64,000 nucleotides of DNA, taken from NCBI RefSeq assembly GCF_023074835.1, contig NZ_JALLGW010000006.1:1-64000 (forward strand), given 5' to 3'. Below, in pieces: positions 847 through 58,482 of the stretch (position 1 is its first letter; every line of letters starts with the position of its first letter). The notes under the pieces are model-generated. The model was not told where the DNA came from, did no database searches, and worked only from the letters and a program-made list of their open reading frames with translations. The position numbers and the translations under genes were made by a program. The stretch is from Halomarina salina. Its GTDB lineage: Archaea > Halobacteriota > Halobacteria > Halobacteriales > Haloarculaceae.

Positions 847-870
847 GCTATTTACTCGGGTACGTAATCC

Positions 871-1014: not shown

Positions 1015-1036
1015 CTAACAAAATCGGTTATCCGAT
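1015..1036 (+). promoter_or_regulatory. Promoter box plus dyad operator ahead of the padR-like gene
   Basis: CTAACAAAA at 1015-1023 begins 35 bp before the ATG at 1050. It is followed by the inverted repeat ATCGG-TTAT-CCGAT (1023-1036) between box and start codon. A dyad at this position fits autorepression by the PadR-like product; this is inference. Confidence 0.5.
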
Positions 1037-1049
1037 ATTTTAACATGTC

Positions 1050-1334: not shown

Positions 1335-1352
1335 CGGCGCGATAGCAACCGT

Positions 1353-1361
1353 ATAACAATG
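1353..1361 (+). promoter_or_regulatory. NTAACAAAG-type promoter box
   Basis: ATAACAATG, 33 bp before the mini-ORF ATG at 1386. The ATG inside the box (1359) is in frame with that mini-ORF, as also happens at 17060 and 20669. Confidence 0.5.
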
Positions 1362-1385
1362 CGCCACAGCGGACTCGGTAGTATC

Positions 1386-1427
1386 ATGACGTACCTTCCC
1401 CGCCGGAACGGAGGGCTGCCCCCGTGA
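1386..1427 (+). CDS. Short upstream ORF coupled to the DUF1616 gene (13 aa)
   Basis: Encodes MTYLPRRNGGLPP and ends in TGA inside GTGA (1424-1427), so it overlaps the GTG start of the next gene by 4 nt. Reading could also begin at ATG 1359 (22 aa). The ORF of the same length ahead of the flippase at 17125 has the same layout. No domain is recognisable. Confidence 0.4.
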   Translation: MTYLPRRNGGLPP

Positions 1428-2428
1428 GCGCACGCCGTTCGCGGGCGTCGGCGATTCCGTTCGACCTCATCCTCGTCCTGCTGTATCTGGGGCTGGTCTA
1501 CGGACTCTTCACGTCGAATCTACTCGGTTCGCCGGGGAGCACGCTCCGCATCCTCGTCACACTCCCGTTGCTCGTGTTCGCTCCGGGGTACGCGCTCGGC
1601 GCGGCCGCGTTCCCCCACGCACCGTCCGGGGAGCGACGCGGCTCGCTGCTCGACCGGGTCCGGGAACGCCCCACCGGCATCGACACGACCGAGCGGGTCG
1701 CGCTCGGGTTCGGCCTCTCGCTGACGCTCCTCCCCATCGTCGGCGTCCTCGTCGCGTTCGAGACGGGGCCGTTCACCGCGGACACGTCCATCGTCGCGCT
1801 CTCGGGCGTCGCGGCGCTGTTCACCATCGTCGCGGCGATCCGACGCTGGCGGCTCTCGGCCGAGGAGCGCTACGGCCTCCCGTTCGGCGTCTGGGCCGAC
1901 TCCATGGGTCGGTCACAGGAAGGGTCGGGGACCGACGTGCTCCTGTCGGTGGGGCTGGGTGTCTCGGTCGTCCTCGCGCTCGCCGCGGGCGGGTTCGCCA
2001 TCGCCTCGCCCCTCGACGGCGAGCAGTTCAGCACGCTCGGGGCGGGTCACATCAACGACGAAGGCGAGTTCGTCCTCGGTCCCAGCGAGGAGCTCACCGA
2101 GAACATCACCGCCGGGGAGACCGTCGACTCGGCGTTCCTCGTCAAGAACGACGAGGAGCGGGCGACCGAGTACACCGTCGTCGTCCAGATCCACCGCGTC
2201 GACGACCAGGGGAACACGTTCCAGAGCAGCGAGATCAACCGCTACCGACAGACGATCGAACAGGGAGCGACGTGGATCAACCCCCACCAGGTGACGCCCC
2301 GTATCCAGGGGACGAACGTCCGCATCGTCTACCTCCTGTACGCCGGGCCGGTCCCGGCCGGTGCGAGCACCGCCAACGCGGACGAGTACGCGTTCCACGC
2401 GATAAACGTCACCGCGGGCGACGAGTAA
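1424..2428 (+). CDS. DUF1616 domain membrane protein
   Basis: 334 residues starting at GTG 1424, overlapping the upstream mini-ORF stop. Hydrophobic segments near 12-32, 40-62, 88-138 and 170-195 are followed by a soluble, probably extracytoplasmic C-terminal domain (about 200-334) containing NITAGETVDSAFLVKNDEER and a beta-rich tail. DUF1616 proteins are recurrent in archaeal glycosylation and exopolysaccharide regions, but no activity has been established to my knowledge. Its position at the edge of this cluster and its promoter class tie it to the polysaccharide genes by context only. Confidence 0.85.
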   Translation: MSARRSRASAIPFDLILVLLYLGLVYGLFTSNLLGSPGSTLRILVTLPLLVFAPGYALGAAAFPHAPSGERRGSLLDRVRERPTGIDTTERVALGFGLSLTLLPIVGVLVAFETGPFTADTSIVALSGVAALFTIVAAIRRWRLSAEERYGLPFGVWADSMGRSQEGSGTDVLLSVGLGVSVVLALAAGGFAIASPLDGEQFSTLGAGHINDEGEFVLGPSEELTENITAGETVDSAFLVKNDEERATEYTVVVQIHRVDDQGNTFQSSEINRYRQTIEQGATWINPHQVTPRIQGTNVRIVYLLYAGPVPAGASTANADEYAFHAINVTAGDE

Positions 2429-3082
2429 CGCGGCGCTCCCTCGTCTGCGTCCGTCCACAGTCCGCCACAGTTCGCTCCGCTTCGCTCGCACCGTTCTCGC
2501 GCCGACTCACTCCTGTTCAGTCGCTTCTAGCCGGTCGCTCCAGCGTTCATCGCTCCACGGACCCGGCGCTCCTGACCCCCTCGACGCGTTCCGTGAGCCG
2601 CCGCTGTGACCACCGCCGGCTGATACGTCCAGGTGGGCCTCCCTGCCGTTCCGTCTCCCCGTGGCCCCGTCCTCGCCGCTGCTCGACGCCGTGAGGGTCG
2701 ACACGACGGACAGCCGCAACCCCGAGCGACCGCCGGGCGCTCGCTCCCTCGACCGACGACGGTACCGGACTCCCGTTGTACCGGACCGCTGTGGTACCGA
2801 GTCACTGTCTACCGTGCGAGCGTTACGACCACCCGACGACCGGTGGTCGAGGGGAACCGACGGCCGTTCCAGGGTGTGTCGACCCGTGGTCGCTCCCGTG
2901 TGCTCCGTAGTCGTCCGGAGATGGGGGGTCTGTGGACCGTTCACGGTGTCTGACGTGCGTCGGATAGTTTGGGGTTAACGGATGTTTGACGGTCTCTGTG
3001 GCCTACTTAGGCGGTGACCTGTCTCGGTTTACTACATCCCTATCCAGCGGCCGTCTTCGGCGGTTTCGACTGCAAGTTCCAC
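2429..3082. other. Intergenic stretch with no supported gene
   Basis: About 650 bases without a convincing gene. Open frames on both strands have compositionally random Arg/Pro/Ser-rich translations and no domain. An inverted repeat CGACCACC / GGTGGTCG with an 8-nt loop lies at 2826-2849, and GTACCG recurs three times in 2761-2800. An unrecognised non-coding RNA cannot be excluded. Confidence 0.5.
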
Positions 3083-3091
3083 ATAACAAAG
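3083..3091 (+). promoter_or_regulatory. NTAACAAAG-type promoter box
   Basis: ATAACAAAG, a perfect match to the recurring box. Unlike the other sites it lies 76 bp before the nearest mini-ORF ATG (3159), so this transcript would have a leader of about 40 nt. Confidence 0.45.
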
Positions 3092-3158
3092 CGTCACACG
3101 AGGGTGTAGACTAGTAGCTGAACTCGGCGCCCCACGGGCGTCGAGGTCTACCACATCC

Positions 3159-3272
3159 ATGCAGGACGCACACGAACTACGAGAGACGACGGGGAGCGAC
3201 CGGCCACACGGCACTGTCGCCCACGACGAGCTTGCTGCCGTGCAGACGGCAGGTGGTGGCCGTGTACCGTAA
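3159..3272 (+). CDS. Short upstream ORF overlapping the GT2 start (37 aa)
   Basis: ATG at 3159 reads 37 codons, begins MQDAHELRETTGSDRP and stops with TAA at 3270-3272. The stop lies 8 nt inside the probable GTG start of the glycosyltransferase (3262), giving an 11-nt overlap. It could also be the displaced N-terminus of that gene through a frameshift, but the GT2 domain looks complete without it. Confidence 0.4.
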   Translation: MQDAHELRETTGSDRPHGTVAHDELAAVQTAGGGRVP

Positions 3273-4302
3273 CCAGTCCATCGGGGTCGTCGTCCCCGCG
3301 TACAACGAGGCTGGTCTCGTCGGCGACGTCATCGAGACGATGCCGACGTTCGTCGACCGCGTGTACGCCATCGACGACCGCTCGACCGACGAGACGTGGG
3401 CCGAGATCCGCGCGGCCGCCGAGCGCGTCAACCGCCAGCGAGCGGGTAGCGGCGCGGACTCCGACCGAGAGTCGGAGTCCGAGGCGGCTACCCCCCTCGC
3501 CGACGGTGGCGTCGCACACGACGGTCCCGTGGTCCCCCTCCGGAACGACCGGAACATGGGGCGCGGCGCGAGCGTCAAACGCGGCTTCGAGCGCGCGCTC
3601 GCCGACGGCATCGACATCGTGGCGATGATGGACGGCGACGGCCAGATGGACCCGCAGGTGCTCGACCACCTCCTCGACCCCATCGTCGAGGACCGCGCCG
3701 ACTACACGAAGGGCAACCGCCTGATGGCGGGTGGTGGCTGGGCCGGGATGTCCCGGTTCCGCCTGTTCGGGAACCACATGCTCTCGTTCCTCACCAAGTT
3801 CTCGACGGGCTACTGGGAGGTCGGCGACTCACAGAACGGCTACGCCGCCATCTCCAGCGACATGCTCCGCCGACTGGACATCGACGGGCTGTACGAGGAC
3901 TACGGCTTCGAGAACGACATCCTCGCGAAGCTGAACCTGCTCGACGCGCGGGTCGCCGACGTCCCGCACCCGGCGGTGTACGGCAACGAGACGAGCACCA
4001 TCCAGTACGAGACGTTCATCCCGCGCGTCTCGGTACTGCTCGCGTCGAACTTCGGCAGACGCGTCCGCTCGAAGTACCTCCAGGGAGGGTTCCACCCGGT
4101 CGTGCTCTGCTACCTGTTCGCCGTCGTGGCCCTCCTCGTCGGGCTGGTCGGTTCGGTTTACTCGTTCGTCGTCTGGGCGCAGGGGTCGCTCGGCCCCGCG
4201 CTCGTCTCCTCGGTCGTCTTCCTGGTCGGTGGCCTCCTGCTCGTCACCGCCCTCGCGGTCGACGTGCGCCTGAACTCCCACCTCGCGGTCGACGGGGAGT
4301 GA
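3262..4302 (+). CDS. GT2 family (Dpm1/DPG-synthase-like) glycosyltransferase
   Basis: 346 residues from GTG 3262; in-frame GTG 3253 and 3256 and TTG 3232 are alternatives. GT-A fold: VVVPAYNEA near residue 9, AIDDRSTDE near 36, MMDGDGQMDP near 120 (metal-binding DxD), then QNGYAAI, followed by two membrane segments near 275-328. Dpm1-like enzymes transfer a sugar from a nucleotide donor to a polyprenyl phosphate on the cytoplasmic face. An insertion rich in Ser/Glu (about 61-80) interrupts the donor domain between beta strands. Donor and acceptor are not readable. It probably supplies lipid-linked sugar to the GT-C-like protein that follows. Confidence 0.9.
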   Translation: MYRNQSIGVVVPAYNEAGLVGDVIETMPTFVDRVYAIDDRSTDETWAEIRAAAERVNRQRAGSGADSDRESESEAATPLADGGVAHDGPVVPLRNDRNMGRGASVKRGFERALADGIDIVAMMDGDGQMDPQVLDHLLDPIVEDRADYTKGNRLMAGGGWAGMSRFRLFGNHMLSFLTKFSTGYWEVGDSQNGYAAISSDMLRRLDIDGLYEDYGFENDILAKLNLLDARVADVPHPAVYGNETSTIQYETFIPRVSVLLASNFGRRVRSKYLQGGFHPVVLCYLFAVVALLVGLVGSVYSFVVWAQGSLGPALVSSVVFLVGGLLLVTALAVDVRLNSHLAVDGE

Positions 4303-4379
4303 CCGACCGGGACGACCCGTGCGTGCCGGTAGCACGGGTACACGGTCGGTACTGACGGACCGTAGACCGTAACGGCTGC

Positions 4380-4388
4380 GTAACAAAG
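4380..4388 (+). promoter_or_regulatory. NTAACAAAG-type promoter box
   Basis: GTAACAAAG, 39 bp before the mini-ORF ATG at 4419. Confidence 0.45.
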
Positions 4389-4418
4389 CGACCACATCGT
4401 CTCTGACACCGATAGCAA

Positions 4419-4448
4419 ATGACAGCGACCCTCCGGAGCGAACGATGA
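4419..4448 (+). CDS. Short upstream ORF coupled to the membrane GT gene (9 aa)
   Basis: Encodes MTATLRSER and stops in TGA that overlaps the next gene's ATG (ATGA at 4445-4448). It is the shortest of the ten mini-ORFs in the window. Confidence 0.35.
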   Translation: MTATLRSER

Positions 4449-6733
4449 AGTACGAGGACTCGGCACGCCGACGCCGCTCGAAGCTGCTGCTCATCGTCGG
4501 CTTCCTCGGGCTCGCGCTCGCCATCGTCCGGGCGCACTTCGCTCCCGCAACCGGGTACGAGCTCTCCATCTACGGGGCGACGCCCGTCGAGGTCTGGATC
4601 GGCGTCGCGATAGCGCTGCTCGTCGCCGTCGCCGTCACCGCCCTCCGACCGAGAGGCTGGCTCGTCCCGACGAGTCTCGGCCTCGCCATCCTCGCCACGG
4701 CGACGGTCGTGTTCATGCCGACCATCCGGGGGTACTACGCCTACGGACGCGCCGACGAACTCACACACATGGGCTGGGCGCGTGGCATCATCAGCGGCGA
4801 GATGGGGGCGATGGACATCTTCTACCCCGGCGGTCACACCTCCGTCGGCCTCATCCACGCCGTCACCGGCATCTCCATCCCGCACTCGATGATGCTGCTC
4901 GTCCAGCTGCTCGCGCTCGTGTTCCTCGTCTTCCTCCCGTTGACGGTCCGGACGCTGGTCGACGACCGCGCCGGGACGGCCATCGCCACGTTCGCGGCGT
5001 GCATGTTCCTGCCCATCACGAACATCTCGACGTACCTCACGTTCCACCCGTACACGATGACGACGCTGTTCTTCCCCGTCATCCTCTTCTTGCTGTTCGA
5101 GTACCTCTCGCGGCGCTCGCGCGGCCTCGCGAACGGCGTGACGGCGACCGGGCTGTTGCTGTTCGTCGGGGCGGTCGGGTCCATCCTCTACCACGGCCAG
5201 GTGGCGCTCAACATCCTCATCCTGTTCGCGACCATCGCGCTCGCCCAGAAGTTCTACCAGTGGCTCCCCGGGGGGAGCACCTTCGCCGACGCGCGGTCGC
5301 TGGCCGTCCCGACAGTGCTGTTCGGCGCGTTCTACGTCGTCTGGGCGTCGCGCTACCAGATCGTCTACTCGATGTTCGACATGGTGTCGACCTCCGTCCA
5401 GAAGTGGGTGGAGGGAGAGGCCGGGGCGGGCGGGGGCAGCGTCGCCAGCACCGGCGACTCCGCCTCGAAGGTCGGTATCAGCATCATCGAGCTGTTCATG
5501 AAGCTGTTCTTCGTGAAGACGGTGTTCGTCGCGCTCGCGGCCATCCTCGTGCTGGTCGCGCTCGCGGGCCGCCTCGACGACGGGCCGGAGGACCGCAACG
5601 AGGCCATCACCTACTTCGCGTACGGGGGGCTGGTGCTCGGGCCGTTCTTCCTGGCGCACTTCCTCGGTGACGTCTCGAAGTACTTCTTCCGGCACGTCGG
5701 GTTCGCGATGGTCATCGCGACCATCCTGGGCGTGGTGATGCTCCACTCGTTCTACCGGGCCATCGCCGGCGGGAAGTACGACGGCGCGCTGCGGGCCGTC
5801 GCGGCCATCGCCATCGTCGGCGGGCTGTTGCTGTCGCTCATCGTCGTGTTCCCGTCGCCGTACATCTACCTCCCGTCGACCGGCACCACCGAGGCGGTCC
5901 ACGACGGGTACAACACGTCGTTCGCCTACAACGCGAACGACACCCGCTGGAACGACATCAGGAGCGGTCCGGGACGGTTCCAGGACGCCCAGCGCACCAG
6001 CGGCGTCGTCCCGTGGGGCACCGTCACCGAGAAGAACCTCATCGCGGACAACCTGACGTCACACTCGCCGTATCCGTACTATCTGTCGATATCGGCGTTC
6101 AACTATCAACGGGAGGTGGACGCCTATCGGGGCGCGACGTTCTCGAAGGAGGCGCTCGACTCCATCTCCGACGAGGACGGCGTCAGCAGAGTGTTGAGCA
6201 CCGGCGTGCGGAGTGACGACGGCACCCGTCTGGACAACGGACTGGTGGTGTACTACGTCGACTCCAGCTACCCGCCCGACCGGGGCTCCGACGACGACGC
6301 GTCGGCCAACGACAGCGGCGGCGAGGGCCAGCAGACCGAGGGCCCGTCGACGCAGCAGACCCAGTCACAGCCGACGGAGACCCGCACGCCCATCCCCGAG
6401 GTGACGCAGGCTCCGCCGTCGACGTCGACCCCGGCGGCCGGGAACGGCACGGCGACGGGTGGCGGGACGACTGCCGGCGGTGGCGGGAGCACCGACGCGG
6501 GCGGTGGCGGCACCGGTGGCGCGCAGACCACGACTGGCACGACCGGCGGCGGAGGCGGTACCGGCGATGGAGGCGATGGAGGCAGCACCGAGACGGGTGG
6601 TGCCACGACGACGGCTCCCTCCGGCGGGACGACCACCGCGCCGAGCACGCCGACCGGGACGACCACGGGGACCGACGGCGGGAACACGACCGGGTCGTTC
6701 CTCCCGTTCGGCGGTCTCCTCGGGGGGATTTAA
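4445..6733 (+). CDS. Multi-pass membrane protein, probable GT-C type glycosyltransferase, with Ser/Thr/Gly-rich tail
   Basis: 762 residues. About twelve hydrophobic segments fill residues 15-480. The first long external loop holds YGRADELTHMGWARGI near 100, an acidic Asp-Glu pair placed as in GT-C enzymes that use lipid-phosphate sugars. A soluble domain (about 480-615) follows, then about 145 residues of Ser/Thr/Gly/Pro low complexity ending in a short hydrophobic GSFLPFGGLLGGI. The tail looks like an extracellular, possibly O-glycosylated linker. It follows the GT2 by about 140 bp with its own box and mini-ORF. GT-C membership is inferred from topology and the acidic loop motif, not from a clear family match. 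Confidence 0.75.
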   Translation: MKYEDSARRRRSKLLLIVGFLGLALAIVRAHFAPATGYELSIYGATPVEVWIGVAIALLVAVAVTALRPRGWLVPTSLGLAILATATVVFMPTIRGYYAYGRADELTHMGWARGIISGEMGAMDIFYPGGHTSVGLIHAVTGISIPHSMMLLVQLLALVFLVFLPLTVRTLVDDRAGTAIATFAACMFLPITNISTYLTFHPYTMTTLFFPVILFLLFEYLSRRSRGLANGVTATGLLLFVGAVGSILYHGQVALNILILFATIALAQKFYQWLPGGSTFADARSLAVPTVLFGAFYVVWASRYQIVYSMFDMVSTSVQKWVEGEAGAGGGSVASTGDSASKVGISIIELFMKLFFVKTVFVALAAILVLVALAGRLDDGPEDRNEAITYFAYGGLVLGPFFLAHFLGDVSKYFFRHVGFAMVIATILGVVMLHSFYRAIAGGKYDGALRAVAAIAIVGGLLLSLIVVFPSPYIYLPSTGTTEAVHDGYNTSFAYNANDTRWNDIRSGPGRFQDAQRTSGVVPWGTVTEKNLIADNLTSHSPYPYYLSISAFNYQREVDAYRGATFSKEALDSISDEDGVSRVLSTGVRSDDGTRLDNGLVVYYVDSSYPPDRGSDDDASANDSGGEGQQTEGPSTQQTQSQPTETRTPIPEVTQAPPSTSTPAAGNGTATGGGTTAGGGGSTDAGGGGTGGAQTTTGTTGGGGGTGDGGDGGSTETGGATTTAPSGGTTTAPSTPTGTTTGTDGGNTTGSFLPFGGLLGGI

Positions 6734-6807
6734 GCTCGGTCGTCGCCCCCCGTCGGGAACAGACGTAGCTGACTTCTCCGGGCCGTCTAATACCATTACA
6801 CAGAATC

Positions 6808-6813
6808 TTTATA
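6808..6813 (+). promoter_or_regulatory. Canonical TATA box
   Basis: TTTATA at -33 to -28 relative to the ATG at 6841, consistent with a leaderless transcript. This gene lacks the NTAACAAAG box and the mini-ORF, which makes it a useful contrast. Confidence 0.6.
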
Positions 6814-6840
6814 CGGGTAAGGGTGTGCTTTCAGGCCGTA

Positions 6841-9800
6841 ATGGCACACGATGCGGCACCCGAACCGGACAGCGAAGAAGTCGCAGACGAGGCGACTGTA
6901 GAGGACAGTAATTCACTGCTTAACAGGCGCTCGTACATGAAGCTCAGCGCGGCGGCAGCGGCTGCGATGGGGACGGCGGCCGTCACGGGGACGGCCAGCG
7001 CGGCGACCTCCCGACACGGCATCTCCTTCGACCGCGTCGTGAACGCGGTCGAGGATCTCGGCTGGGACCCCGACGGGAACGACCCGATCGACGTCCCGAC
7101 CGACGAGGGCCTCCTCATCGAGGTCCCGCCCGGCGAGTACGTCTTCCCGCTCAGCGGGAGCGAACCCCACTGCGTCAGCGGCGACCTCCGCCGCTGGGGC
7201 ATCCGCGGGCTCGGCGACAGCCGGAACGACGTGACGTTCCGGACGGCGTCGGGCGACTCGGGCTACTTCATCCGCTCGGGGTACAACTCCGAGGGACTCC
7301 TGCTGGAGAACTTCGAGTTCGACAACACGGGCGACCACACCGGCGGCGACATCGGCAACTGGCTCCGGGCGCAGGACAAGCTGATGGTGAAGGACATCGA
7401 CCACGTCGGCTTCTCCGGCCGCGAGCCGTACTGCCGCTGGTCGATCCTGCCGGAGATCAAGAGCGAGAACGGCTCCGGTCGCATCGTCAACTACACCAAG
7501 ACCGGCCCCTCCGTGTTCGCGGGCCACGGCGCCTCCGACGGCGCGGGTGGCGTGTTCTCTCACGACGGGCTCCTCACCTTCGAGAACTGCGTCATCGCCA
7601 ACCAGGGCGGCGACGGCGGGCTCTACACCGGGAAGCACAACGGGAAGATCGTCTACGACAGCTGTGAGTTCCGCAACAACGACATGGCGGCCATCCGGGC
7701 CGGTGCGGGCTGTGAACTCCGGAACTGCCTCGTCGTCATCGACTGGGACAACGCCCACCCCGACAACGTCATCGACGACCAGAAGGAGCCGACCGGGACG
7801 GCCGGGCTCTACCTCTCGACGGCGGAGTACGGGAAGTCCGGCGGCGGCGTCTACAACTGTAACTTCGTCTTCAAGTCGACGTACTACAAGGGGATGGCCG
7901 GCATCCACGTCAACAACTCCGACGGGAACTTCGACATCCACGACACGCGCATCCAGGTCGACTTCGACCGGATGCCCGCCATCTGGGGCGGCAATCCCGA
8001 GGACCAGCGGTTCAGCAGCCACCAGACGCCGGAGAAGCCCTGGGGACTCGACATCCGGAACGTCAGCATCACCGGCTCCGGTAACATGCGTGGCGACGGC
8101 GCTATCTTCATCGAGAACCGCCACGGGACGACCATCGCCGACTCGTGCATCCAGACCCCGAACGCCGACGGCGTCCACATCAGCTCCGCCCGGAACTGCA
8201 CCATCGAGAACACGAACATCAACGCCGGTGGTCGCGCGACGGTGTTCGACAACAGCTCCGTCGACACCAGCGGCGTGACGAAGAACGACAGCTGTCCCCT
8301 CCCCGACACGTCGTCGCCGGTCGGCTCCGGCGGGTCCGACGACGGGACCGAGGAGACGGAGTCCCTGCGGACCCGCCTCGTCGTGGCGGCCGACGAGAAC
8401 ATGCGCTACCACGTTCGCGGTCAGAACACCCAGGTGGCCAGCGACAACGAGGGGCCGACGCCGACCATCGACACCGACGACGACGGCGCGTACGGCGCGC
8501 TGGTGGCTGGCGAGTCGGTCGCCCTCACCATGGACTCGTACAGCGTCGCGCGCATCGAACCGGAAGGCGGCGCGACGCTGACGCTCGACGGCGACGTCCT
8601 GCCCCCCGAGGAGTACGGGACGATGTCGACGCCCGCGTGGGAGGTCGGCGAGGACGTCACCATCCCCGAGGAGACGTCCGACAGCGAGTCCGCGGACGAC
8701 GTGTCGGGTAAGCGACTCGCCGTGACGGCCGACGCGAACATGCGCTACCACGTTCGCGCCGAGAACACGCGCGTGGTCGACGACAGCGACGGCTCGACGC
8801 CGACCGTCGACGTCGACGACGGCGGCGCGTACGGCGCGCTCGAGTCCGGCCAGTCGGTCGTGTTCGCGGTCGATTCGTTCAACGTGGCCCGCGTCGACCC
8901 CGACGACGGGGCAACGCTGACGCTCGACGGCGAGGTCGTCCCCCCCGAGGAGTACGGGACGATGTCGACGCCCGCGTGGGAGGTCGGCGAGGACGTCACC
9001 ATCCCCGAGGACTCGACCGACCTCGAGTGGGGTGACCTGCCGGGTACGCTCCTCTCCATCGCGGCCGACGACGACATGCGCTACCACGTCCGCGCCGCGA
9101 ACACTCGACTGGTCAAGGGTGCGCCCGGCCCGACGCCGACCGTCGACATCGACGACAACGGCGCGTACGGTGCGCTGGCGGCCGGACAGACGGCCTACCT
9201 CCTCGTCGACTCGTTCAACGTGGCCCGCGTCGAACCGGGCGACGGCGCGACGCTGACGCTCGGCAGCGAGGTCATCCCGGTCGAGGAGTACGGGACGATG
9301 TCGACGCCCGCGTGGGAGGTCGGCGAGGACGTCCCCATCCCCGAGTCCGAGCCGCTGCCGAGCGACACCGTCAGCGTCGTCGGTCTCGGCGACGCGGCGA
9401 CCTACCAGTTCACGGTCGAGGAGGACGTCGTCCCGAACCCCGACAAGGGGACGCTCGACGACCAGGACAACATCTCCGACCGGAGCGTCGAGGGTGCGGT
9501 CACCACCGGCACCGACAGCTACCGGTTCGCCGGGGACATCACGCACTTCGAACTGCTGGGCGACGCGGCCGTCTACGTCAACGGCGAGCAGGTCAGCCCC
9601 GACCTGCTCGGGACGGACCAGGACGCACGGCTGACCGACCTCATCGTCGTGGACGGCACGGGGAAGAGCGGTCGCTGTGACTACGAGTTCTCCGTCGACG
9701 GTCAGGTCGTGAAGAGCCCCGAACTCGGCAGCGTCGAGGCCGAGGACACCGTCGAGGGCGGGGCGGTGACCGGCACCGTCGAGGGCGAGCGCGACGCCTA

Positions 9801-10105: not shown

Positions 10106-10174
10106 ATGACGATGTCACGGCACTCCCTTCTGACGCGTCGACAGCGGGTATCTCCCGCGGAGGGTCGACGATGA
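10106..10174 (+). CDS. Short upstream ORF coupled to the UDP-sugar dehydrogenase gene (22 aa)
   Basis: Begins MTMSRHSLLTRRQRV, basic, and stops in TGA overlapping the next ATG (ATGA at 10171-10174). ATG at 10112 is an alternative in-frame start. Confidence 0.4.
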   Translation: MTMSRHSLLTRRQRVSPAEGRR

Positions 10175-11451
10175 CTACGGTGTGTGTTCACGGGCTCGGA
10201 TACGTCGGCCTGCCGACGGCCGCGCTGCTGGCGCACAACGGCAACGAAGTCGTCGGCTACGACGTCGACGAGCGGAAGCTCGACCGGCTCCACCGCCGGG
10301 AGCTCCGCCTCGGCGAGGCCGACCTGGAGCGGTACATCGTGGAGGCGCTCGACGACGGGACGCTCGTCCCGTCGAACACCGTCGAACCGGCGAACGTCCA
10401 CGTTATCTGCGTGCCGACGCCGCTGGACTTCGACGCCGAGCGCGCGGACCTCGAGTACGTCCTCTCGGCGGCGTCCGGCATCACGGACGTCCTGCGCGAG
10501 GGCGACACGGTCATCCTGGAGTCGACGGTGCCCCCCGGAACGACCGAGGGACCGCTCCGGGAGGCCCTCGAGGAGTCCGGTCTCCGCGCCGGCGAGGAGT
10601 TCCACCTCGCGTACTCTCCCGAGACCGTCCTGCCGGGGAACATCCTGGAGGAGCTCCGGACGAACGACCGGTTCGTCGGCGGTATCGACGACGCCTCGAC
10701 GGACCACGCCGTCGCGCTGTACGAACCGTGTATCGACGGCGACGTCAACCGCACGCCCGACGCGACGACGGCGGAGTTCGTCAAGCTCGCGCAGAACGCC
10801 TACCGCGACCTGAACATCGGGTTCGCGAACGAACTGGCGAACATCGCGAAGGACTACGGCGTGAACACCCGCGACGCCATCGCGCTGGCGAACCGTCACT
10901 CCCGCGTCGACATCCTCCAGCCCGGACCGGGCGTCGGGGGCCACTGTCTCCCCGTGGATCCGCTGTTCTTCGCGCACGACTCGGACTCGCTCGACCTCAT
11001 CTACAGCGCCCGCCGCGTCAACGACGGCATGTCCGAGTTCGTCGTCGACCTGCTCGAAGAGCACCTCGGGACGCTGGAGGGGAAACGCGTGGCCGTCCTC
11101 GGCGTCGCGTACAAGGCGAACGTCGACGACACGCGCAACTCGCCGGGGCTGAAGCTCGCGGGCGAACTCCAGCAGGCGACGCCCGACCGCGCGCTCGCCG
11201 ACGGCGGCGCGGCCGTCGAGACGCGCCTCTGTGACCCGCTGGTCGACGACGACCGCCTCGACCTGGTGAGCGTCGACGAGGCCGTCACGGACGCCGACGC
11301 CATCGTCGTCACGGCCGACCACGACGTCTTCCGCGACCTCGACCCGGTCGAGACGCGCGAGAAGATGCGCGGCGACCTCCTGCTCGACACGAAGGGCACG
11401 ATGGACGCCGACGCGTGGGACGCGGCGGGCTTCGACGTGGTCGGGCTATGA
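10171..11451 (+). CDS. UDP-sugar 6-dehydrogenase (WecC/UGD family)
   Basis: 426 residues, full length. N-terminal NAD-binding GLGYVGLP (residues 8-15), STVPPGTT in the middle, and the substrate/catalytic region QPGPGVGGHCLPVDP with the active Cys at residue 259; the C-terminal UDP-binding domain follows. The family oxidises C6 of a UDP-hexose to a uronic acid in two NAD-dependent steps. The GPGVGGHC context is closer to UDP-ManNAc/GlcNAc dehydrogenases (WecC type) than to classical UDP-glucose dehydrogenase, but the substrate cannot be fixed from sequence. It overlaps the next gene by ATGA, so the two form an operon. It likely supplies uronic-acid donors to the glycosyltransferases here. Confidence 0.92.
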   Translation: MTTVCVHGLGYVGLPTAALLAHNGNEVVGYDVDERKLDRLHRRELRLGEADLERYIVEALDDGTLVPSNTVEPANVHVICVPTPLDFDAERADLEYVLSAASGITDVLREGDTVILESTVPPGTTEGPLREALEESGLRAGEEFHLAYSPETVLPGNILEELRTNDRFVGGIDDASTDHAVALYEPCIDGDVNRTPDATTAEFVKLAQNAYRDLNIGFANELANIAKDYGVNTRDAIALANRHSRVDILQPGPGVGGHCLPVDPLFFAHDSDSLDLIYSARRVNDGMSEFVVDLLEEHLGTLEGKRVAVLGVAYKANVDDTRNSPGLKLAGELQQATPDRALADGGAAVETRLCDPLVDDDRLDLVSVDEAVTDADAIVVTADHDVFRDLDPVETREKMRGDLLLDTKGTMDADAWDAAGFDVVGL

Positions 11452-47175: not shown

Positions 47176-48357
47176 ATGGAAGGCGACGAGAGGCGGGCGA
47201 TACGGGGGCACGAGGTGGGAGACGAGACGACGCAACTCCAGTCGGCGGTCGAGCGCTACCTCCGCTCGAAGTCCACCAGTCGAGACGAGAACGGCGACCC
47301 GACCGGGACGTACGTCGACGCCGCCGGGTCGGAGCTCCGGCGGTTCGTCGCGTGGCTGGACGCCCGCGACCGCGACCTGAACGACCTCGCGGGCGACGAC
47401 GGCCCCCTCCTCTTGCGTCGCTACGCCGAACGGCTCGACGACCGCGTCACGGCGGGCGGTATCGCCGGGTCGACCGCGACCACGTACTTCTCGTACGTCT
47501 CGGGCTTCCTCACGTACTGCGTCCGCGACGGTCGCCTCCCGACGAACCCGGCGCTGACGACCACCGCCCGCGAGGCGGTCCCGGCCGACGACTCGGCGCG
47601 GGCAGACCAGCAGTTCTGGACGAGCGAACAGCGCCGCCGCCTGGTCGCGCACGTCGACCGACGCGCCGCCGACGCTATCGACGAGCACGGGTTCGACGCC
47701 CGCGTCGAGGCGCGGGACCGCGCGCTCGTCCGGATGCTCGCCTACGCGGCCGTCCGCGGCGCGGAGGTGCTGCGCCATCCCAAGGACGACCGCGAGGGAC
47801 GCCAGGGCGTCCGCTGGTCGGACGTCGACCTCGACCGCAACACGCTGCGCGTCCTCGGGAAAGACCAGCGCCTCGGCCCCGTTGCCCTCCCGTCCAAAGC
47901 GGCGGTCGGCGTCGAGCGCTGGCGGGCCGTCCAGCGCCCGCCGAGCGACGACTGGCCGGTGTTCCCGACCGACCACGCCCCCTCGAAGTACGCCGCCGTC
48001 CGCGCGGCGCTCGGCGAGGAGACGGACGTCGCTGCACTGGCCGACGAGGCCGGCGGCATCGACGCCTTGCTCCGCGAACGCGACGTCGCGCCGCCGGCGC
48101 TCACGACCGAGGGCGCTCGCTCGCTGCTGAAGCGACTGACCGCCGACGCCGGTATCGCGGTGGACGACGAGGCGGGCTACCTCCAGCTCCACGGCGCGCG
48201 CCGGGGCATCGTCGGCGAGGTGTACCGCCGCGACCGGGGCGACGCGCAGGACCTCGCCCGACACAAGGATCTCTCGACGACCCACGAGGCGTACCAGCAC
48301 ATCGACGTCGAGGAACAGACCGAGCGGTTCGACGCGCATCTGGAAGATATCGACTGA
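47176..48357 (+). CDS. Tyrosine-type site-specific recombinase (integrase)
   Basis: 393 residues. N-terminal core-binding region (about 15-140, with STATTYFSYVSGFLTY), catalytic domain from about 150. Active-site residues visible: Arg in YAAVRGAEVLR near 195, HGARRGIV near 341 (HxxR), ARHKDLSTTHEAYQHI near 362-378 (His/Lys and Tyr). Catalyses strand exchange by a 3'-phosphotyrosyl link. No tRNA, att core, inverted repeats or transposon genes were seen around it. It may be a resident haloarchaeal recombinase rather than a mobile element. Confidence 0.9.
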   Translation: MEGDERRAIRGHEVGDETTQLQSAVERYLRSKSTSRDENGDPTGTYVDAAGSELRRFVAWLDARDRDLNDLAGDDGPLLLRRYAERLDDRVTAGGIAGSTATTYFSYVSGFLTYCVRDGRLPTNPALTTTAREAVPADDSARADQQFWTSEQRRRLVAHVDRRAADAIDEHGFDARVEARDRALVRMLAYAAVRGAEVLRHPKDDREGRQGVRWSDVDLDRNTLRVLGKDQRLGPVALPSKAAVGVERWRAVQRPPSDDWPVFPTDHAPSKYAAVRAALGEETDVAALADEAGGIDALLRERDVAPPALTTEGARSLLKRLTADAGIAVDDEAGYLQLHGARRGIVGEVYRRDRGDAQDLARHKDLSTTHEAYQHIDVEEQTERFDAHLEDID

Positions 48358-52171: not shown

Positions 52172-53431
52172 ATGACCGACCAGGATGAGTCTCACGACGC
52201 GCGCGCAGGCGTCGCGTTCACCGACATCTACGTCGACGACGACATCGTCGACCGGGTGAGCGACACGCTGCGCAGCACGCGCTACGTCAAGGGGGAGCGC
52301 GTCGAGCGATTCGAGGCCGCCTTCGCCGACCGGTGTGGCACCGACCACGCCGTCGGCGTCAACAGCGGCACGGCCGCCCTCCTGCTGTCGATGCAGTCCG
52401 CCGGCATCGGCCCCGGCGACGAGGTGTTCGTCCCCGGCCACACGTTCTTCGCCAGCGTCAGCCCCGTCCTCCACCTCGGCGCGACGCCCGTCTTCGTCGA
52501 CGTGGACCCGCGAACCTGCACGATGGACCCGGACGACCTCGCCGCGAAGGCCGAGCGCGCCGAGAACCCGACCGCCGTCGTCCCGGTCCACCTCTACGGC
52601 CAGCTCGCCGATCTGGACGCGATTCTCGACGTTGCCGACGACCACGACCTCACCGTCGTCGAGGACGCGTGCCAGGCGCACTTCGCCACCCGCGACGGCC
52701 ACACGGCCGGCGCGTCCGGCGACGCCGGCGCGTTCAGCTTCTACCCCTCGAAGAACATGACCGTCGGCGGCGACGGCGGCATGCTCGTCACGGACGACGC
52801 CGACCTGGCGACTCGCGCCCGCCGACTGCGCGACCACGGCCGCGACGAGGAGGGCGTCCACCGCGAGGTCGGCCTCAACTACCGCATGAGCGAGGTGAGT
52901 GCAGCAGTCGGCCGCGAACAGCTCGACCGCGTCCAGGAGTGGAACGACGCCCGCGCCGCCGCCGCCGCCCGGTACGACGGCCTGCTGGCGGCCGTCGACG
53001 GCGTCGAGACGCCGACCGTCGCCGACGGCGCACAGCACGTCTACCACCTCTACGTCGTCCAGGTCCCCGCCGCCGACCGCGACCCGCTGCGCGACTACCT
53101 GGCGGCACGGGACATCGAGACGGGCGTCCACTACGAGACGCCGGCCCACCAGCACCCGGCCGTCGCCGAGCGCGTCGGCGACGTCAGCCTGCCCCGGACC
53201 GAGGCGCTCTGTGACCGCATCGTCTCGCTCCCGATGCACCCGCGCATCGCACCCGAGGACGTCGAGACGGTCTGTGCGGCCGTCGCGTCGTACTTCGAGG
53301 GAAAACAGGGAGGCGTCGCCGAGTCGGAACCGGACGACCCAGCCGACTCCGGCACGACCGAGTCCGACCCCGAGGAGCCGACCGACACCTCGCCAGCCCG
53401 CACCGACGGCGGTCGAGAGGAGTCGCAGTGA
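52172..53431 (+). CDS. DegT/DnrJ/EryC1/StrS-type sugar aminotransferase
   Basis: 419 residues. PLP fold type I: GVNSGTAALLLSMQSAGIGPGD near 65, FVDVDPRTCTMDP near 108, VEDACQAHFA near 165, and FSFYPSKNMTVGGDGG with the Schiff-base Lys at residue 194; YRMSEVSAAVGREQL near 235. These enzymes aminate a keto sugar nucleotide using glutamate. A 40-residue acidic Pro/Thr/Glu tail follows the core, longer than usual. It overlaps the Gfo/Idh gene by GTGA, the classical pairing for oxidising then aminating C3 or C4 of a UDP-sugar. Confidence 0.93.
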   Translation: MTDQDESHDARAGVAFTDIYVDDDIVDRVSDTLRSTRYVKGERVERFEAAFADRCGTDHAVGVNSGTAALLLSMQSAGIGPGDEVFVPGHTFFASVSPVLHLGATPVFVDVDPRTCTMDPDDLAAKAERAENPTAVVPVHLYGQLADLDAILDVADDHDLTVVEDACQAHFATRDGHTAGASGDAGAFSFYPSKNMTVGGDGGMLVTDDADLATRARRLRDHGRDEEGVHREVGLNYRMSEVSAAVGREQLDRVQEWNDARAAAAARYDGLLAAVDGVETPTVADGAQHVYHLYVVQVPAADRDPLRDYLAARDIETGVHYETPAHQHPAVAERVGDVSLPRTEALCDRIVSLPMHPRIAPEDVETVCAAVASYFEGKQGGVAESEPDDPADSGTTESDPEEPTDTSPARTDGGREESQ

Positions 53432-54468
53432 GCCGCGACTACGCCGTCATCGGGACGGGCTACTGGGGGTCGAACCACGTCCGCGTCGGAGCCGAACTGC
53501 TCGACGAGGGTCACCTCGACTCGCTGACCATCTGCGACATCGACGAGGAGCGGGTCGTGGACCTCGCGAGCAACCACGGCGTCGACTACACCACCGACTA
53601 CGCGACGCTGGCCGACCGCGGCGTCGACGCGGCCGTCGTCGCCGCCCCCTCGCCGACCCACCGCGCCATCGCGACCGACCTGCTGGAGGCGGGGGTCGAC
53701 CTGCTCGTCGAGAAACCGCTCGCGCTGTCGAGCGACGACGCGTGGGCTATCGTCGACGCCGCCGAGCGCAACGACCGCGTGCTCGCGGCGGGCCACATCT
53801 TCCGGTACCACCCCGCGCTCTGCGACCTGAAGCGGCGCATCGACCGCGGCGAACTCGGCGACGTCCGCTACCTCAACACGAACCGGTTCGCCTACCGCGC
53901 GCCCCGCCCCGACGCCGGCGCGCTGTTCTCGCTGGCCGTCCACGACGTCGACATCTACAGCTGGCTGCTCGACCGCGACCCCGAGCGCGTCTACTGCACG
54001 CTGGACGCGACCGTCCGCGACGGCGTCGACGAGACGGCGACGCTCACGCTCAGCTACGGCGACGGCACGACCGGCGTCGTCAACGAGTCGTGGAACGTCC
54101 CCGTCTTCGACAAGCGCCGGGACCTCACCGTCGTCGGCACCGAACGCTCGGCGCACGTCGACTACCTCCAGAACACCGAACTCGAACTCCACGACGCGAC
54201 GATGGTCCGCGACGGCGACGCGATTCACGCCCGCCAGGAGGGGAGTCGCGTCCACGAGACCGCCGCCTACGAACCGCTCCGCGCCGAGATCGAGGCGTTC
54301 CTCGAGTCGTGCGAGACACGCGAGCCACCGCGCGGGTCCGGCCGCGTCGGGGCACGGGCGGTCGAACTGCTCGAACGCGCCGCGGAGTCCGCCCGGACGG
54401 GACAGGCCGTCGACGTCTCGCTCGGGACGCGCCGCCCCGCTGACGCCCTCGCCGAACGGTCGCGCTAG
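53428..54468 (+). CDS. Gfo/Idh/MocA family oxidoreductase (WlbA-like candidate)
   Basis: 346 residues from GTG 53428, overlapping the aminotransferase stop. IGTGYWGSNHVRV near 5 (Rossmann), LLVEKPLALSS near 93 (catalytic Lys), AAGHIFRYHPAL near 116 and AVHDVDIYSWLL near 167 (conserved His). GYWGSNHVR and coupling to a DegT aminotransferase resemble WlbA, which oxidises C3 of UDP-GlcNAc uronic acid before amination. A UDP-sugar 6-dehydrogenase is present at 10171. The substrate remains an inference. Confidence 0.9.
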   Translation: MSRDYAVIGTGYWGSNHVRVGAELLDEGHLDSLTICDIDEERVVDLASNHGVDYTTDYATLADRGVDAAVVAAPSPTHRAIATDLLEAGVDLLVEKPLALSSDDAWAIVDAAERNDRVLAAGHIFRYHPALCDLKRRIDRGELGDVRYLNTNRFAYRAPRPDAGALFSLAVHDVDIYSWLLDRDPERVYCTLDATVRDGVDETATLTLSYGDGTTGVVNESWNVPVFDKRRDLTVVGTERSAHVDYLQNTELELHDATMVRDGDAIHARQEGSRVHETAAYEPLRAEIEAFLESCETREPPRGSGRVGARAVELLERAAESARTGQAVDVSLGTRRPADALAERSR

Positions 54469-54520
54469 CGGGTGGGTCCGACGGGATGCTATACTGTTAG
54501 TTGGTAGCCTTATCGTCCAT

Positions 54521-54536
54521 CCTACAAAGTTGTAGG
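54521..54536. promoter_or_regulatory. Dyad overlapping the probable promoter of the zinc-ribbon gene
   Basis: CCTACAA-AG-TTGTAGG is a near-palindrome whose CTACAAAG half lies 34 bp before the ATG at 54556, where the recurring box sits in other genes. A protein bound here would cover the promoter. Confidence 0.45.
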
Positions 54537-54555
54537 TACCGAGTTGGTGACACTA

Positions 54556-54714
54556 ATGCCCCAATGTACACACTGCAGCGGCCACATCTCCCAGCGGTTC
54601 ATGACGGTCTTCGGCGACGAGAACAGCCAGGTCTACGCCTGCCCCAACTGCTCCGCGAACGCGGGTATCGCGGAGGTCGCCCGTCTCCGCGCCGGGACGA
54701 AGTGGCAACAGTGA
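54556..54714 (+). CDS. Small zinc-ribbon protein (DUF7563-like)
   Basis: 52 residues, too short for many gene finders. Two CxxC pairs, CTHCSGHISQRF and CPNCSANAGIAE, bracket a short domain like the haloarchaeal DUF7563 family (zinc-ribbon). The first pair is at residues 4-7. Role in DNA or RNA binding is plausible but unproven. It stands between the Gfo/Idh gene and a phosphorylase on the other strand. Confidence 0.8.
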   Translation: MPQCTHCSGHISQRFMTVFGDENSQVYACPNCSANAGIAEVARLRAGTKWQQ

Positions 54715-54744
54715 CGACGGACGGACGATAGTCGATTCTTGTGG

Positions 54745-55500
54745 TCAGGACACCGTGACGTACGCCGACAGCGCCGCAGCCGTCGGGTCGAGTAGTTCAA
54801 CCAGATTGTCCTCGCTCTCGGGCACCCAGCCGTCGGGGTCGAGGTAGTCTCCGACCTCGTGGACGGTCGCCGTCGCGACACCCCGATAGCGACAGACCGC
54901 CCAGAGCGCCGCCGTCTCCATACACAGCGACAGCACTCCCTCGTCGCGGTAGTGACGGAGTTCGGGGAGCGTCTCCCGGTACATCGCGCTCGTCGTCCAC
55001 GTCGGTCCACGAGCGGTGTCGACACCGGCGCTCGCAAGCGACTCGTCGAGCGCGTCGACGAGTGTCGGTGTCGGCGCGACCGGGTCGTCGTGGTCGAGGT
55101 AGTGGTACGAGACGCCCTCGTCTCGAATCGCGCTGGTCGGGAGGACGGCCGTCGTGGGGTCGAGGTCGGACTGGAGCGACGCACCCCCGCCGAGGTAGAC
55201 GACTGCCTGCGCCCCGGAGGCGACGACGTTCTCAGTTACGATGGCCGCGACGGGCGCGCCGATACCGACCTCGTGGACCGGGACGTAGCCGACCGAGTCG
55301 GAGAGCACGAGACAGCGCTGGGAGCGCACGATGTCGACCGTCTCGACGGCACGCTCCTCGACGTGGTCGGTCAGGTGCGCCTGGAAGCCAAGCAGAATCG
55401 CTGGCGGGAGGTCGGGAACGCCGCCGCCCTGTGCGTCGAGCGCATCCCTGGGCGAGAACAGCGCCTCTGCACCGTGTTTCTCGGGGTAGTTCGGAATCAT
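54745..55500 (-). CDS. Nucleoside phosphorylase family protein
   Basis: 251 residues. Family features: PAILLGFQAHLTDHVEE near 33, HEVGIGAPVAAIVTENVVASGA near 76 (phosphate/ribose region), and VLSLCMETAALWAVCRYRGV near 190 with the METxA-type motif where Met-Glu contacts the ribose. The group includes uridine and purine phosphorylases and AMP nucleosidases. No substrate assignment possible. Isolated from the sugar genes by orientation and function. Confidence 0.88.
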   Translation of the reverse strand: MIPNYPEKHGAEALFSPRDALDAQGGGVPDLPPAILLGFQAHLTDHVEERAVETVDIVRSQRCLVLSDSVGYVPVHEVGIGAPVAAIVTENVVASGAQAVVYLGGGASLQSDLDPTTAVLPTSAIRDEGVSYHYLDHDDPVAPTPTLVDALDESLASAGVDTARGPTWTTSAMYRETLPELRHYRDEGVLSLCMETAALWAVCRYRGVATATVHEVGDYLDPDGWVPESEDNLVELLDPTAAALSAYVTVS

Positions 55501-55709
55501 ACACCCGTGGTCGAAACGGCCCGAGAAACCGGTTGCGGGAGTGTGCTAGGAGCGAGCACCACACACGAATGTCCGTGCGTCGTATCGGGAACACGACGCG
55601 TTGGCGATTCCAGCGTTCGCAGAACACCGGCGACAGGTGTCGCCTCCCATCGTCGTGGGTCAGACCGTCACAGGCAGGAACCCCGATAGCCGACCAGCCG
55701 GTTGGCTGA

Positions 55710-56498
55710 TCAGTCGTGGTCGAGCCACGACGCCGTCAGGCGGATTCGGTTGCCGTCGAGGGTCGTGTACGCCGGTTCGAACGGCGGGAAGTCGAGCGCG
55801 CGGATGAGGTCGTAGGTGTCCTGCCGGACCACCGGGTCGTGACTGACGAGGCGTTTCGCGGGAATCTCCTTGCGGTCAACGAGGCTGTCCTTCGCGTGGA
55901 AGTACCGCGGGCCGTCGAACTCGTCCTGTGGCGTGCCCATGTCGTCTATCTCGCCCGAGACGATGTGCGGGAGGTACTCCTCGAACAGGTCGACGGAGGC
56001 CTCACAGACCTTCTCGTAGAGGCTTCGCGCCGTGTCCTCTTCGGTGATGGGCGCGAAGTTCCGGCCGATGACGGCCCCCGCGTCGACGTCCTCGACCATG
56101 ACGTGGAGCGTCGTCCCGTGTCGCCAGTGGTCGTCGGCGCGGGCGTTGAGGATGGAGTGGCTGAACACGTTCGACCCACGGTAGCGGGGCAGTTCTGCCT
56201 GGTGGAGGTTGAGCGCCAGGCGCTCGGGGTGGTCGAGCAGCTCCCCGTCGAGGATGTTCGGGTAGTAGACGCTGAGCAGGTAGTCGATCTCGTGCTCCAG
56301 CACGCGACGCTCCTCGTCGAGCGTCGCCACCTCGTAGCCGTACTCCAGGGCACGCTCGTGGACCGACCCGTCCCACCAGCCGTCGTGGTCGCGGGGGTAG
56401 GTGACGACGAGGTCGACGTCGACGTCGGGGTGGTCGTGGAGGCGAGCGAGGCAGGTCTCGCCCAGCGGGTGGCTACCGAAGAACGCGACGCTGGTCAT
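55710..56498 (-). CDS. Formyltransferase-fold protein (candidate sugar N-formyltransferase)
   Basis: 262 residues. The N-terminal Rossmann-like domain has VAFFGSHPLGETCL near 4; the catalytic region is LALNLHQAELPRYRGSNVFSHS near 95-115 followed by VEDVDAGAVIG near 134, matching the Asn-His-Asp triad (Asn and His of NLH, Asp of DVDAG) of N10-formyl-THF-dependent formyltransferases. It lacks the tRNA-binding C-terminal OB domain of methionyl-tRNA formyltransferase, and lies among sugar genes, so N-formylation of an amino sugar is the favoured role. Other one-carbon roles remain possible. Confidence 0.85.
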   Translation of the reverse strand: MTSVAFFGSHPLGETCLARLHDHPDVDVDLVVTYPRDHDGWWDGSVHERALEYGYEVATLDEERRVLEHEIDYLLSVYYPNILDGELLDHPERLALNLHQAELPRYRGSNVFSHSILNARADDHWRHGTTLHVMVEDVDAGAVIGRNFAPITEEDTARSLYEKVCEASVDLFEEYLPHIVSGEIDDMGTPQDEFDGPRYFHAKDSLVDRKEIPAKRLVSHDPVVRQDTYDLIRALDFPPFEPAYTTLDGNRIRLTASWLDHD

Positions 56499-56577: not shown

Positions 56578-58482
56578 TCACTGCTCGCCCCCTGACCCGG
56601 CGCTCGTCCCCGGCGTCCGACTGGTCGTCGCAGCGGCGGGCGTGGGCGGCGCGACGCTCGCCGGGCCGTCGACGCGTTCGCGCTCCAGTTCGAGCAGGTT
56701 CGTCAGCGCCATCAGGTGGGAGCCGACCTCGTACGCGCCCTTGAACTGCTGGTCGGGGACGTCGATGCGGCCGTCGGTAGTGACGAACCGGAGCGGGACG
56801 CCCAGGCCGCTCTCGGCGGCGAGGTCCGTCCCGCGGTCGTTCGCGCCGTCCAGCCAGCGCATCGCGCGGCCGAGTTCGGCGTCGTAGTCGCGCCGTCCCC
56901 CGGCGGCGTAGTAGTGGGCCACCGCGTTGACGAAGAACGTCTGGTGACAGGCGTAGAGGAAGTCCCAGTGCGGCCGGCGGTCGGTCCTCCCGAGTCGGCG
57001 GCGGAGTTCGAACCCCCACCGGGTCCATCGATCGGGGTCCTCCCAGACGAACGCGCCGTCCTCGCGCATCCGGTGCTCTATCGTGTAGTCGAGGACGGCC
57101 GCGACGTTCTCCAGGTAGCCGGGGCGGTCGGTCACCTCGATGGCCCGGCAGAGCCCCCAGAGGGCGTACAGCTGGTTCTGGTGGCGACGGGTCGTCGGGT
57201 TGTCGAACGCGAACAGCGTCCCCCAGCCGTCCTGCCGGTCGACGACGCTCGCCATCCCGCGGTCGATGGCCTCGCGCACGTCCGGGGCCGGTCGGCGCTC
57301 GTAGAGGTACGTCCAGCCGTACAGCACCAGCGCGTCCTCGCTGTGGTCGAAGCCGGTGCGAGGGGCGGCGTGGTCGAACAGGTCGCGGGCGCGGTCGAGG
57401 TACCGGCCGTCGAACACGTCGCTCGCCAGCGCGAACGCGCAGGTCAGCGGCCCGAGCCCGTAGCTCGACAGCTCGTCCAGCGCCCCGTCGTCGACCTGCT
57501 CCTCGAAGTAGGTCAACTCACGGCGGAGTTTCGCGTCGTGCTCGTCGGTGCCGTGCGCCGAGACGCGCCACTGCATCGCGCCCATCAGCGCGAACGGGGC
57601 GTAGCGCCACTGCGCGTCGTCTCGCGCGGTCCAGTTCGTCGGTCGGCCCTCGGCGTCGACCTCGTAGGTCAGCTCGCGGGCGACGTGGCCCCCCTCGCCG
57701 TCGTCGAGCCAGAACCCGGCCTCCTCGGCGGGCCGGAACAGGCAGTCGAGGGCGCGCGACAGGTCGCCCTCGCGGTCGGCGGGACGGGCGCTCAGGACGA
57801 GGTACGCGGCGTCCTCGGGCGCTCCCCGGGGCCGGCCGTCGTCACCGGGCGCGTTCAGCCGCGCCGTCGCGCGGTCGGCGTGGGCGACGAACGGCCGCTG
57901 GAGGGCGTCGGGCGCGAACGTCGCGAGCTTCGAGTGGAGCCAGTATGGGTGCTGGTAGACGAGTCGGTACTCGGCGAGCGACCAGTCCGGTTCCAGCAGG
58001 GCGCGAGCGTCGCTCGGTTCGTAGTACCGCATCCGGTACTTCCCGCCCGCCTCGTACGGCGAGCGCGGCGTCGGAATCGAGAGGACGAACCGCCCGTCGG
58101 GCGCGACGACGCGGCGCACCTCGGCGGTGAGCGCCGCGACGTCGAGGAACCGCCAGTCGTACGGCCCGACGCAGACCGCCGCGTCGAACTGGTCGTCCGG
58201 GAACGGGAGGCGCGGCGACTCGGGCGGAACCCGCTCGTAGCGCCCGACGCGGTCGCCGAGCACCGTTTCGGCGCGCTCGCTCGCGGCGTCGGCGAAGTCC
58301 ACGCGGGTCACCGACTCGGCGGTCAGTCCCTCGGTGACGGTCGTCTCGCTGGCGACGTCGAGGACGTGCCCGCGCTCGCCGAACAGGTCCAGCGCCTGCT
58401 CGCGTTCGGCGTCGCGGAGGTACTGCGTGAGGGGGTCGGCGGGCGGCTGGTCGACCCAGCGCGTCAGCGTCTCCTCACGCAC
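56578..58482 (-). CDS. Class I SAM methyltransferase fused to an alpha/alpha six-hairpin domain
   Basis: 634 residues. Residues about 35-190 form a Rossmann methyltransferase with a weak motif I (GHVLDVASETTVTEG), motif IV-like AAVCVGPYDWRFLDVAAL and a post-motif VVAPDGRFVLSIPTP. From about 240 to 600 the sequence is a helical toroid like the protein at 13952-15148 (QNQLYALWGLCRAIEV, HWDFLYACHQTFFVNAVAHY). The last 40 residues are Ala/Pro/Thr low complexity. A fused sugar O-methylase plus glycan-binding or trimming domain is plausible. Eighty base pairs from the formyltransferase, same strand, probably co-transcribed. Confidence 0.83.
   Translation of the reverse strand: MREETLTRWVDQPPADPLTQYLRDAEREQALDLFGERGHVLDVASETTVTEGLTAESVTRVDFADAASERAETVLGDRVGRYERVPPESPRLPFPDDQFDAAVCVGPYDWRFLDVAALTAEVRRVVAPDGRFVLSIPTPRSPYEAGGKYRMRYYEPSDARALLEPDWSLAEYRLVYQHPYWLHSKLATFAPDALQRPFVAHADRATARLNAPGDDGRPRGAPEDAAYLVLSARPADREGDLSRALDCLFRPAEEAGFWLDDGEGGHVARELTYEVDAEGRPTNWTARDDAQWRYAPFALMGAMQWRVSAHGTDEHDAKLRRELTYFEEQVDDGALDELSSYGLGPLTCAFALASDVFDGRYLDRARDLFDHAAPRTGFDHSEDALVLYGWTYLYERRPAPDVREAIDRGMASVVDRQDGWGTLFAFDNPTTRRHQNQLYALWGLCRAIEVTDRPGYLENVAAVLDYTIEHRMREDGAFVWEDPDRWTRWGFELRRRLGRTDRRPHWDFLYACHQTFFVNAVAHYYAAGGRRDYDAELGRAMRWLDGANDRGTDLAAESGLGVPLRFVTTDGRIDVPDQQFKGAYEVGSHLMALTNLLELERERVDGPASVAPPTPAAATTSRTPGTSAGSGGEQ

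Follow-up and report, generated by a model that had tools for sequence, protein, structure and literature searches.

A DegT-type aminotransferase gene, a Gfo/Idh/MocA oxidoreductase gene and a formyltransferase gene lie close together in the genome of the haloarchaeon Halomarina salina, which raises the question of whether this organism makes an N-formylated amino sugar and, if so, which one. The DNA analysed here (the window) comprises the first 64,000 nucleotides of contig NZ_JALLGW010000006.1.

Organization of the locus

The genes for the aminotransferase (DegT; 52172–53431, plus strand; 419 residues; PF01041, 388 bits) and the oxidoreductase (Gfo; 53428–54468, plus strand; 346 residues; GFO_IDH_MocA, 78 bits) overlap at a GTGA, the coupling described in the initial annotation. 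The formyltransferase gene (FT; 55710–56498; 262 residues) begins ∼1.24 kb beyond the end of Gfo. Two features were absent from the initial annotation: FT is on the minus strand, convergent to the DegT-Gfo pair, and a gene for a phosphorylase-superfamily protein (54745–55500, minus strand; PF01048, 84 bits) intervenes between Gfo and FT. FT and the pair do not share a transcript at this locus. The phosphorylase gene was considered as a pathway member and dropped, since among the FT loci examined it is found beside the module only in the window and at L025/L064, i.e. in two Halomarina genomes; it is probably not part of the module.

On the far side of FT, a gene on the minus strand (56578–58482) encodes a methyltransferase-domain protein (PF08241, 31 bits) with a long C-terminal part that has no family assignment, and homologues of this protein (49–75%) occur in 15 FT loci. 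The region 47176–48357, inside the glycan island, reads like a tyrosine recombinase gene. The contig that contains the window is 99,196 bp long, and its last 8,664 bases are an exact repeat of its first 8,664 (window positions 1–8664), which indicates a circular replicon of ∼90.5 kb. A ParA-like gene is located near 75.5 kb of the contig.

The formyltransferase

The Formyl_trans_N domain of FT scores 62.4 bits, above the curated cut-off of 26.1. Its catalytic triad consists of Asn96, His98 and Asp138; the asparagine and the histidine are present in all 31 aligned rows and the aspartate in 30. FT has a C-terminal hairpin, and a Pfam search detected no Formyl_trans_C domain in it; at 262 residues, the protein is missing the tRNA-binding domain of methionyl-tRNA formyltransferase (Fmt), as the initial annotation had noted.

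Assignment of FT within the formyltransferases is less direct. Family models score below their cut-offs (PRK06988, 122.8 bits; ArnA, 84.9; Fmt, 70.8; PurN, 44.2), and a profile search cannot separate the enzyme from Fmt, as a Bacillus Fmt (82.4 bits) and ArnA (82.0 bits) are matched equally well. The predicted structure (mean pLDDT 82.8) is closest in fold to ArnA (Z of 20.8), tied with Fmt (19.9), followed by the 3-N-formyltransferases (near 17) and PurN (near 16.6). In a phylogenetic tree, the purine enzymes form their own clade (support 100/99), and the position of FT among the sugar formyltransferases and Fmt is weakly supported. An approximately unbiased (AU) test does not reject the grouping of FT with the purine enzymes (p = 0.485). 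With the sister group not fixed by the tree and the AU test permissive, the argument for FT rests on its context.

The tie with the Bacillus Fmt, the loose position in the tree and the outcome of the AU test would each be compatible with a formyltransferase of purine, initiator-tRNA or other metabolism that stands in the glycan island by chance. We regard this as very improbable: the same genome encodes separate PurN-PurH and PurU-like proteins, FT has no tRNA-binding domain, and its conserved linkage and its exchange with an acetyltransferase, both described below, are difficult to account for if FT has no part in amino-sugar synthesis. FT is described here as a probable sugar N-formyltransferase.

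The aminotransferase and the oxidoreductase

The best solved relatives of DegT are 7b0d, DesV (2oga), perosamine synthetase, WbpE and QdtB. Most are 3-aminotransferases (DesV, WbpE and QdtB), with perosamine synthetase among them, and DegT is probably a 3-aminotransferase as well. The best-matching family of Gfo is NF040723 (archaeal UDP-GlcNAc 3-dehydrogenase), at 216 bits against an equivalog cut-off of 450; DegT, Gfo and FT all fall below NCBIfam equivalog cut-offs.

The initial annotation had proposed a WlbA-type oxidoreductase, a view that the profile scores do not support. A profile built from 30 relatives of Gfo matches GnnA with 181.8 bits (1.5e-52) and two WlbA structures with 88.0 and 83.6 bits (5.5e-24 for WlbA), a comparison of profile scores rather than of positions in a tree. 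The residues Glu95, Pro97, His172 and Asp175 are invariant in the 30 relatives, and Lys96 is present in 29. A fold search with the Gfo model did not discriminate within the Gfo/Idh family, as Z ranges from 34 to 38 among the matches listed (GnnA, 36.9; WlbA, 35.4). Gfo is described as a GnnA/MMP0352-like NDP-sugar 3-dehydrogenase, and its greater proximity to GnnA than to WlbA suggests that the substrate is likely to be UDP-GlcNAc and not UDP-GlcNAcA.

A pair acting on a sugar without the 2-acetamido group (UDP-glucose or UDP-glucuronate) would lead instead to a kanosamine-type 3-formamido-3-deoxyhexose. Gfo does also resemble GenD2, KanD2 and inositol dehydrogenases, which the fold scores do not set apart, and the best solved relative of DegT is annotated as a scyllo-inositol transaminase. 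GnnA, however, is the closest solved relative of Gfo by nearly 60 bits in the profile search, and we consider a kanosamine-type product improbable.

Conservation of the module among haloarchaea

Orthologues of FT and Gfo were surveyed in 391 haloarchaeal genomes, which are related to one another, so that the counts are not independent. FT is present in 29 genomes and Gfo in 33; both occur in 25, FT alone in four and Gfo alone in eight (Fisher p of about 2e-28, uncorrected for relatedness). FT and the DegT-Gfo pair share one locus in 23 of the 25 genomes with both, and are convergent, as in the window, in 21 of these 23. The gap between FT and the pair in the 23 genomes has a median of 468 bp; it is at most 1.5 kb in 19 and at most 300 bp in 11, and it measures 1,247 bp in the window and is widened to 5.4 kb by extra genes in Halomarina rubra. 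Two of the four genomes with FT and no Gfo orthologue have a divergent pair nearby. In genomes G242 and G349, FT is located in an unrelated context and the pair is accompanied by an acetyltransferase. When 393 genomes from across the phylum were sampled, FT was found only in the order to which H. salina belongs.

A second FT copy with stop codons (118 kb of contig C3 in genome G026) was considered as a pseudogene and rejected: the region around it duplicates the start of the same contig, which we attribute to redundant contig ends.

Exchange of formyltransferase and acetyltransferase

All nine pair loci without FT that were read carry a gene for a hexapeptide acyltransferase, convergent to Gfo and 16–111 bp away from it. 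The best solved relatives of this enzyme are a WxcM-like protein (4mzu), WlbB (3mqg), an N-acetyltransferase (7s43) and QdtC, which we take to be mainly sugar 3-N-acetyltransferases. The resemblance to WlbB, among others, also speaks against the kanosamine-type product. On a tree of the concatenated pair, FT and the acetyltransferase are exchanged five times, and well supported branches force at least four of these exchanges. At one locus (L098), both enzymes are represented: the acetyltransferase gene adjoins Gfo, and just beyond it is an FT relic disrupted by frameshifts and stop codons.

The occupation of one slot by either gene, the four to five exchanges and the relic at L098 are what would be expected of two enzymes that acylate a common 3-amine and substitute for one another. 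The proposal of the initial annotation, that a sugar N-formyltransferase acts on the amine made by DegT and Gfo, is thereby strengthened, as FT occupies the slot of a sugar N-acetyltransferase in sister loci. We consider it likely that FT formylates the amine product of the pair.

Two further observations concern L098. Its acetyltransferase, which lies together with the frameshifted FT in L098:8645–10352, is 90% identical to that of L135, and the genome to which L098 belongs (G171) carries an intact FT locus on another contig.

A second gene order is found at L094, where FT, DegT, Gfo and a 6-dehydrogenase gene follow one another with overlaps of 4 bp, and a gene for a WecB-type 2-epimerase comes next. 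The pair at L094 is divergent from that of the window (43% identity for DegT and about 29–30% for Gfo); its Gfo is again nearest to GnnA, and its 6-dehydrogenase is of the UDP-HexNAc type. At another locus, L130, an acetyltransferase gene precedes a DegT-Gfo-6-dehydrogenase run of this type. Comparison of the two indicates that FT stands in the place of the acetyltransferase in the second gene order too. Judged by its genes, L094 has the complement of the Wbp pathway (PMC10622841), with formyl predicted in place of acetyl.

Proposed pathway

From the gene content, the family assignments, the conserved linkage and the repeated exchange, we infer the following chemistry. By gene family, the locus holds a Wbp-like set of 3-dehydrogenase, 3-aminotransferase and 3-N-acyltransferase, with FT as the acyltransferase. 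Gfo would oxidise C3 of a UDP-sugar with NAD+; given its resemblance to GnnA, this sugar would most likely be UDP-GlcNAc. DegT would convert the resulting ketone to the 3-amine by transamination. FT would then transfer a formyl group from 10-formyl-tetrahydrofolate to the 3-amine, giving UDP-2-acetamido-3-formamido-2,3-dideoxy-glucose (UDP-GlcNAc3NFo); formyl-tetrahydrofolate is expected to be available, as the genome encodes the PurN-PurH and PurU-like proteins mentioned above. For the exact product, UDP-GlcNAc3NFo is our slightly favoured assignment. The UDP-HexNAc-branch 6-dehydrogenase may convert this product to a uronic acid, and the glycosyltransferases of the island would use the sugar in a surface glycan.

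The 6-dehydrogenase and the possibility of a uronic acid

The initial annotation had pointed to a UDP-sugar 6-dehydrogenase at 10171 and, from it, to a formylated diamino-uronic acid. The gene is real (10171–11451, plus strand): TIGR03026 is matched above its cut-off with 377 bits, followed by NF040825 (329 bits), PRK11064 (325 bits) and AglM (184 bits). The enzyme belongs to the UDP-HexNAc (UDP-ManNAc/GlcNAc) branch and not to the UDP-glucose branch. It is encoded on the same plasmid as the FT module, 42 kb away, and the genome has two more 6-dehydrogenases.

Elsewhere, many FT loci have a similar 6-dehydrogenase gene no more than 10 kb away, and nine of those near FT loci are in the UDP-HexNAc branch. 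Only at the divergent L094 locus does a 6-dehydrogenase belong to an overlapping run with FT.

These sequence relationships make a uronic-acid step plausible for the window plasmid. In that case, the 6-dehydrogenase at 10171 would contribute, and the final sugar would be a formylated 2,3-diamino-uronic acid, either GlcNAc3NFoA or the corresponding mannuronic epimer. Its membership of the UDP-HexNAc branch, the nine enzymes of the same branch near FT loci, and the 6-dehydrogenase and WecB genes that follow FT-DegT-Gfo at L094 are consistent with this. On the other hand, the enzyme is encoded far from the module, in a genome with two others; Gfo groups with GnnA, for which no uronate is needed; and the L094 pair is of a divergent type, 29–43% identical to that of the window. 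We therefore hold the uronic acid as a tentative end product, for which the case falls a little short of balanced.

Implications

The enzyme families and reaction types involved are already known. Their combination, in which haloarchaea are predicted to formylate a GlcNAc3N-type sugar and have repeatedly exchanged the formyl and acetyl enzymes, has no counterpart that we found in the open-access literature. To our knowledge, N-formylated sugars in archaea are known only as legionaminic acid, from Halorubrum and its virus. We found no report in the open-access literature of a 3-formamido uronic acid or of such a haloarchaeal formyltransferase. The broadest reading of the data is that haloarchaea make a new 2-acetamido-3-formamido sugar, perhaps a uronic acid, and that their surface-glycan loci alternate between 3-N-formyl and 3-N-acetyl, the exchange of a single gene at a constant position being enough to switch the surface chemistry. 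In our judgement, the chances that this holds in full are evenly balanced.

If so, this sugar would be a second type of archaeal N-formylated sugar, with a defined gene set, and the sister loci with an acetyltransferase in the place of FT would provide a natural control. The mass of the glycan could be predicted from the genome alone, as formyl and acetyl groups differ by 14 Da. The loci would also exemplify the recurrent replacement of one enzyme by a non-homologous one at a surface-sugar locus, and the acyl group on the surface sugar may be recognised by viruses and by mating partners.

Comparison with known systems

FT shares the fold, the Asn-His-Asp triad and the lack of a tRNA domain with the N-terminal domain of ArnA and with WlaRD, QdtF, FdtF and WbkC, at sequence identities of 16–30%. 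ArnA, a UDP-sugar formyltransferase, acts on a 4-amine, whereas WlaRD, QdtF and FdtF act on 3-amines of dTDP-6-deoxysugars. We know of no solved formyltransferase that acts on UDP-GlcNAc3N.

A formylated amino sugar in a haloarchaeon has a precedent in Halorubrum sp. PV6, whose N-glycan contains 5-N-formyl-legionaminic acid and whose pathway locus includes a candidate formyltransferase gene (PMC6137143). The Halorubrum route, in contrast, is that of a nonulosonic acid, and its formyltransferases fall in clades separate from FT. The H. salina genome also carries a probable legionaminic acid cluster (G000:C2:134500–154400; L028), with NeuB-, NeuC- and LegC-like genes and two formyltransferase genes facing each other, an arrangement common to genomes G002 and G007. 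As the Halorubrum study describes one candidate (PMC6137143), the two at L028 suggest that a second formyl position is possible.

The systems of GnnA/GnnB and of Methanococcus MMP0352-MMP0350, which make UDP-GlcNAc3N and GlcNAc3NAc, use an oxidoreductase of the same Gfo/Idh subgroup. GnnA is 28% identical to Gfo in a structure alignment. Unlike these systems, the window Gfo is below the cut-off of NF040723, and formylation is predicted here instead of acetylation. The acetylation step in Methanococcus is that of MMP0350.

A close parallel in reaction logic is provided by the Wbp/Wlb route to UDP-ManNAc3NAcA, which comprises WbpA, WbpB, WbpE, WbpD and WbpI (PMC10622841). The module of H. salina differs from this route in having a folate-type formyltransferase in place of the WbpD/WlbB acetyltransferase, an oxidoreductase nearer to GnnA than to WlbA, and a 6-dehydrogenase that is encoded at a distance. 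The predicted chemistry is otherwise alike: oxidation at C3 by a Gfo/Idh enzyme, transamination by a DegT enzyme and acylation of the 3-amine would follow in the same order (PMC10622841).
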